Origin: Burkholderiales bacterium
Lineage (GTDB): Bacteria > Pseudomonadota > Gammaproteobacteria > Burkholderiales > SG8-39
Direction: 5' to 3'
Assembly: GCA_029266935.1 (NCBI GenBank)
Contig: JAQSVY010000017.1
Span: 1-15,904, forward strand
Length of the DNA stretch: 15,904 bases
Shown here: positions 4,361-5,305 of the stretch, piece after piece
How positions within the stretch are numbered: position 1 is the stretch's first letter
How the letters are laid out: each line of letters starts with the position of its first letter
The notes under the pieces: generated by a model
Database searches by the model: none
What the model was told of the DNA's origin: nothing
What the model saw: the letters and a program-made list of their open reading frames with translations, nothing else
Made by a program: the position numbers and the translations under genes

Positions 4361-5305
4361 ATGCTAGGATTCCTGCGCAGCTACTTCTCAAATGACTTGG
4401 CGATCGACCTCGGGACCGCCAATACGCTCATCTACGTCCGGGGCAAGGGCATCGTCCTGGACGAGCCGTCGGTCGTCGCCATCCGCCAGGAGGCCGGCCC
4501 GAACGGCAAGAAAACCATCCAGGCGGTCGGCAAGGAAGCGAAGATGATGCTCGGCAAGACCCCGGGCAACATCATCGCCATCCGGCCAATGAAGGACGGC
4601 GTCATCGCCGACTTCACCGTGACCGAGCAGATGCTCAAGCAGTTCATCAAGAAGGTGCACGACAACAAGCTCTTTTCGCCCAGCCCGCGCATCATCATCT
4701 GCGTGCCCTGCGGCTCGACCCAGGTCGAGCGCCGCGCGATCCGCGAAAGCGCCATCGGCGCCGGCGCCGGCCAGGTGTACCTCATCGAGGAGCCGATGGC
4801 GGGCATGGTGTACTCGGGCTCAGTGCGCGTCGGCGGCGACAAGTTCGACGAGGCGATCATCAACTACATCCGCCGCAACTACGGTATGCTGATCGGCGAG
4901 ACCACCGCGGAGATGATCAAGAAGGAGATCGGCTCGGCCTTCCCGGGCAGCGAGGTGCGCGAAATGGAAGTGAAGGGCCGCAACCTCGCCGAAGGCATCC
5001 CGCGCAGCTTCACCATCTCCTCGAACGAGATCCTCGAAGCGCTCACCGAGCCGCTCAACCAGATCGTCTCGGCGGTGAAATCCGCGCTCGAGCAGACGCC
5101 GCCCGAGCTCGGCGCCGACATCGCCGAGAAGGGCATGGTGCTCACTGGCGGCGGCGCGCTGCTGCGCGACCTCGACCGGCTGCTGATGGAAGAGACCGGG
5201 CTGCCGGTGATCGTCGCTGACGATCCCCTTACCTGCGTGGTGCGCGGCTCCGGCAAGGCCCTGGAGAAGATGGAGCACTTCGGCCCGATCTTCACCAACG
5301 ATTGA
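4361..5305 (+). CDS. mreB: Rod shape-determining actin homologue MreB with internal in-frame deletion
   Basis: MreB is the bacterial actin that polymerises on the inner membrane and organises the Rod complex. From the ATG at 4361 ([19 protein letters not shown]) there are 314 residues, against 347 in E. coli and typical betaproteobacteria. Phosphate-1 ([11 protein letters not shown], near residue 15) and the C-terminal adenosine region ([15 protein letters not shown]) are intact. After EEPMA (residues 143-147) the sequence jumps to [19 protein letters not shown]. The usual helix AAIGAGLPV and the phosphate-2 loop DIGGGTTEV are missing, about 33 residues. The frame is kept and flanking conservation is high. 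A TTG at 4355 is an alternative start with better spacing (7 bases) from AAGGG. Function as an ATPase is doubtful; an assembly error is the main alternative. First gene of the mre operon. Confidence 0.93.
4799..4804 (+). other. Junction of the apparent 99-bp in-frame deletion in mreB
   Basis: Codons GCG (A147) and GGC (G148) join the sequence that normally precedes the AAIGAGLPV helix to the sequence that normally follows the phosphate-2 hairpin (GMVY). The short G/C-rich run GGCGGGC at the join could reflect microhomology. The position is inferred by comparison with remembered MreB sequences. Confidence 0.75.

Follow-up and report, generated by a model that had tools for sequence, protein, structure and literature searches.

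The mreB locus and its missing 99 bp

The window, meaning the whole stretch of DNA analysed here, comprises 15,904 nucleotides of a Burkholderiales bacterium (GCA_029266935.1, contig JAQSVY010000017.1). It is contig 250 of a draft genome (G000) of 2.19 Mb in 375 contigs, estimated to be 56.5% complete. Pfam profiles identified gatB, gatA, gatC, mreC, mreD, mrdA, rodA, aceA and aceK around mreB, and the canonical gene order mreB-mreC-mreD-mrdA-rodA is also found in the window. Features are reported in Table 1.

Table 1. Features discussed in the text, with their positions in the window
Feature	Position	Strand	Remarks
gatA	2453..3913	-	Pfam PF01425; no unique loss in the window; served as a control for length; 28 bp missing in relative G009
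mreB as assembled	4361..5305	+	open frame of 314 codons; intact relatives are 99 bp longer; NF010539, TIGR00904, PF06723
Junction PMA-GMVY, site of the absent 99 bp	4797..4806	+	placed by eye to within about 1 bp against relatives; no repeat on either side
mreC	5302..6252	+	Pfam PF04085
mreD	6239..6745	+	Pfam PF04093
mrdA (PBP2-type transpeptidase)	6739..8655	+	Pfam PF00905 and PF03717
rodA	8655..9767	+	Pfam PF01098; no unique loss in the window; relative G006 lacks 54 bp

The longest open reading frame of mreB starts at a TTG at 4355, an ATG being present at 4361, and it encodes 314 residues from the latter with no stop across the junction. Intact mreB genes of the same genus (G004, G010) measure 1044 bp, or 347 residues. 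Nucleotide alignment to the intact gene of G004 revealed a single gap, of exactly 99 bp, which keeps the reading frame and removes residues 148-180 of the intact numbering (33 residues, AAIGADLPV...DIGGGTTEV...SLG). An earlier note, made from the window alone, had described an MreB lacking about 33 residues including the phosphate-2 loop, with the frame kept, the rest conserved, and a length of 314 equal to 347 minus 33. The alignment to close relatives bears this out, as well as the loss of DIGGGTTEV; two details have to be corrected, namely the helix that the note quoted as AAIGAGLPV, which reads AAIGADLPV in the genus, and the start of the longest reading frame, at the TTG just given. Despite the gap, the protein passes the cut-offs for whole MreB proteins (NF010539, 460.8 bits for a cut-off of 293; TIGR00904, 440.3 for 365.75; PF06723, 412.9 for 27), NCBIfam and Pfam matching it as two stretches.

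Outside the gap the protein is typical of canonical MreB, as judged from these three families and from the structures 4cze/4czf and 1jce. It retains DLGTANT at residues 16-22, which we take to be the phosphate-1 loop, the TGGGA loop, and the catalytic glutamate, that of LIEEPMA (residue 144, a position deduced from the alignment to solved MreBs). In contrast to canonical MreB, residues 148-180, and with them the phosphate-2 loop DIGGGTTE, are absent from the assembled sequence. In Caulobacter crescentus MreB the catalytic glutamate is given as Glu140 (PMC9195046), and Gly165, Gly166 and Thr167 are listed among those that form bonds with the triphosphate of ATP (PMC6965359). When aligned to 4cze/4czf, and with the chain numbering taken to differ by 7 from the published one, as deduced from Glu140, these three residues fall inside the missing stretch, so that the further claim of the note, a loss hitting the ATP-phosphate contacts, is structurally sound. 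The equivalents of two residues described in Spiroplasma MreB5, Asp156 at the Mg and Thr161 beside the gamma-phosphate (PMC9195046), probably lie there too. Judging from its sequence, an MreB devoid of residues 148-180 is not expected to bind ATP in the normal way and, given the absence of DIGGGTTE, the product as assembled cannot be called a working MreB. No MreB without a phosphate-2 loop was named in the titles and abstract openings of the literature searched, which is no proof of absence.

mreB in related genomes and proteins

The gene was compared among 98 genomes of the family. In 79 of them most of mreB could be read on a single contig (in two of these rows a contig end makes the sequence start within the gene); the other 19, where it was missing, fragmented, or interrupted by N or a contig end, were left out. 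Net length change was zero in 76 of the 79, and the absence of 99 bp is therefore far outside chance for mreB. The three exceptions lacked 51 bp (G005), 99 bp (the window) and 151 bp (G082, a frameshift), in three different places, the gaps beginning at 382, 441 and 567 in the numbering of an intact gene. Among the 19 genomes left out, several have a contig end inside mreB, both within and outside the gap stretch. One of the family drafts, G002, whose mreB pieces are 96-98% identical to the window, shows 218 N over the gap stretch, which is the number of bases that the intact gene has there. At the level of the order, mreB was matched in 383 of 399 genomes; among the best 150 rows listed, 127 had no net length change and a loss of at least 12 bp was found in the window only. 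The family of G198 (11 genomes) had no gap in mreB.

Two side observations were made on these genes. Some family members possess a second, diverged mreB-like gene, with 70-78% DNA identity (G009:C127, G019:C50 and G024:C55), and at the contig ends G011:C317 (L063) and G016:C311 (L062) pieces of mreB are repeated or rearranged.

Proteins were searched with the gapped MreB of the window as query, which favours gapped relatives and by which frameshifted genes cannot show up. Among the best 120 of 8000 scored proteins, 109 had 347 residues. Five MreBs in this list, besides that of the window, also lacked between 22 and 44 residues, in frame and with overlap to the gap stretch; each of these gaps was different, and the PMA-GMVY junction of the window was found in none of the five. 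One of the five, P0004, is identical to the window protein at the 309 residues compared (1-147 and 153-314); its gap differs from that of the window while overlapping it, and it keeps 12 of the 33 missing residues, AAIGADLPVADA. It presumably comes from the same species. The database protein P0003 (442 residues, with a longer N-terminus) has an intact loop and a single difference from the window over the 314 shared residues. There are thus near-identical proteins in which the missing stretch is present, entirely or partly. A degenerate DNA scan for the junction over a collection of 84,980 species, which may leave out the window's own genome, returned two matches, and their open reading frames, inspected by eye, were not MreB. 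A further protein, P0001 (470 residues), is an MreB in which a long section of the middle is repeated internally, possibly another assembly error.

Gaps in rpoC, gatA and rodA of the same family

Control genes were then compared for losses of the same kind. For rpoC, 76 listed rows were entered, nearly all of at least 1,000 bases. The 25 rows that begin before query base 200, and so include the rpoB-rpoC spacer, were excluded, leaving 51 rows (154,410 bases). Net losses of at least 12 bp were present in 5 of the 51. Base-level comparison placed losses of 52, 41, 68 and 17 bp in G095, G067, G094 and G091, and a fifth, of 13 bp, beside an NN in G086 (L079-L083, in this order); none is a multiple of three. 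The frame switches at all three junctions that were translated (G094, G095 and G067), and for G091 and G086 the break is judged from the gap length. Net differences of −55, −44, −71 and −20 in G095, G067, G094 and G091 exceed the gaps by 3, which reflects a 3-bp difference elsewhere, and ten others of the 51 rows differ by −4, +1, +2 or +5. The fetched stretches of the four losses lacking NN contained no N. The rpoC gene is essential and no cell can lose it; the rpoC gaps are therefore assembly errors. In G086, the NN marks a join of this kind for which too few N were written. Gaps similar to that of mreB are thus found, in comparable drafts, in an indispensable gene.

In gatA, entered for 81 of the 98 genomes, one loss was scored, of 28 bp in G009 (L067), a frameshift by its length; net differences of +30, +39 and +41 were taken as natural variation. 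In rodA, a loss of 54 bp was seen in one genome only of the block around mreB, G006 (L068). This block spans about 12 kb, and 8 members of the genus have all or some of it. With the N of G002 counted as present, it showed four unique losses of at least 15 bp in four genomes: 99 bp in mreB of the window, 51 bp in mreB of G005, and the gatA and rodA losses just mentioned.

We next compared rates, counting about 1,400 bases for each of the 81 gatA rows. Together, rpoC and gatA had 6 losses of at least 12 bp, for which 1.8 were expected in mreB and 3 seen (P 0.28). As the window was chosen for its gap, rates were also calculated without it, giving 2 losses in mreB (P 0.54). With a threshold of at least 30 bp, 3 losses remained in the control genes, and mreB had 3 for 0.92 expected (P 0.066), or 2 for 0.90 without the window (P 0.23). 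Gaps in mreB are not clearly commoner than the background, even if the gene may be somewhat prone to them, with a modest excess. The gap of the window nevertheless needs no cause of its own. The frame was kept in 3 of 10 events, or in 2 of 9 once the window is set aside, the proportion that chance would give, in a small sample.

Origin of the gap

The earlier note had left the choice between a real in-frame deletion and an assembly error. The gaps in rpoC, gatA and rodA, and the differing gaps in mreB, speak for the second and against the first. Because related drafts have like gaps elsewhere, including some that would destroy the essential rpoC, we conclude that the absence of the 99 bp is very probably an assembly artefact, and that the organism most likely carries an ordinary 347-residue MreB. 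By analogy, the window's gap would belong to the same class as the draft gaps of the rpoC type. The contig may have been closed across a short stretch left unrecovered in a draft of low completeness, the two sides being abutted with no N written; either such abutting or a chimeric read could be the exact step. Homology at the junctions was about 1 bp or none, by eye, and this scantness fits with the abutting of pieces across an unrecovered stretch. Counting against an artefact, the loss keeps the frame and the remaining genes of the operon are recognised. Moreover, the assembly of the window gives no direct trace of a forced join, since its genome has no second unique gap of at least 15 bp within the 12-kb block compared base by base, and N was absent from the 18 readable contigs among 20 sampled. 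Two further contigs, compared to four relatives by match lengths only, had no comparable gap that stood out. The other two sampled contigs (L087, G000:C20, and L100, G000:C280) consist wholly of N.

Many frameshifts and internal stops in bacterial assemblies are described as technical, their number rising with falling read coverage (PMC11017572). The gap of the window would likewise be technical, but those spurious gene disruptions are frameshifts and stops, whereas the present gap is in frame, and a count of pseudogenes would for this reason miss it.

An artefact could also arise at a physical hot spot, a conserved hairpin in mreB DNA causing polymerase skipping or a drop in coverage, and thereby recurring gaps. 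When 29 intact relatives were compared in 100-nt windows, mreB 321-540, a region that covers the 51- and 99-bp gaps, contained the seven most stable ones of the coding strand and the top four of the other strand, and a 241-nt stretch of G010 folds with a z of −2.26. The excess of mreB gaps of at least 30 bp, as well as the gatA gap in one of two references (P 0.025, and 0.12 in the other), goes in the same direction. However, the mreB gaps set against the whole block give only P 0.07-0.10, the rodA gap P 0.94-0.95 and the five rpoC gaps P 0.18-0.91, and from 12 bp upwards the mreB rate is not above background. The signal is thus suggestive within mreB, weak against the block and absent in rpoC, and we consider such a hot spot unlikely. 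The 21-mers most shared between species were located at mreB 250-350, 550-650 and 950-1000, the first two adjoining the gaps.

Alternatively, a recent in-frame deletion may have occurred in the sampled population, yielding an MreB without its phosphate-2 loop, probably inactive, and tolerated because the cells have a second copy or are not rod-shaped, or because the population is mixed. The kept frame, the recognisable mreC, mreD, mrdA and rodA, the preserved DLGTANT, LIEEPMA glutamate and TGGGA loop, and the N-free contigs are all in keeping with this. It would nevertheless be an exception beside the like gaps in rpoC, gatA and rodA of related drafts; its junction recurs neither in the other five MreBs with gaps in the list of the 120 best proteins nor in an MreB of the degenerate scan; and no other of the 150 rows listed for the order has a comparable loss. 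The second mreB that the note had suggested, and which would excuse the loss, was not seen in G000: one mreB was found, the other match being an Hsp70 (PF00012, 589.3 bits), in a draft whose 56.5% completeness leaves the absence of a second copy unproven. A real deletion appears improbable. Least probable of all, and hardly to be expected, is that the main MreB of a natural population truly lacks the loop and yet sustains growth, whether it acts as a structural subunit independent of nucleotides or has an unseen second MreB beside it; were the loss real, it would be a test of whether the MreB actin fold works without contacts to the ATP phosphates.

The assembly artefact that we favour carries a practical warning. 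In drafts of this family, losses of at least 12 bp occurred about once per 45 kb in the two conserved control genes, whose rpoC and gatA rows, about 268 kb together, had 6, and those that keep the frame, as in the window and in the five other MreBs among the best 120 listed, mimic new protein variants.
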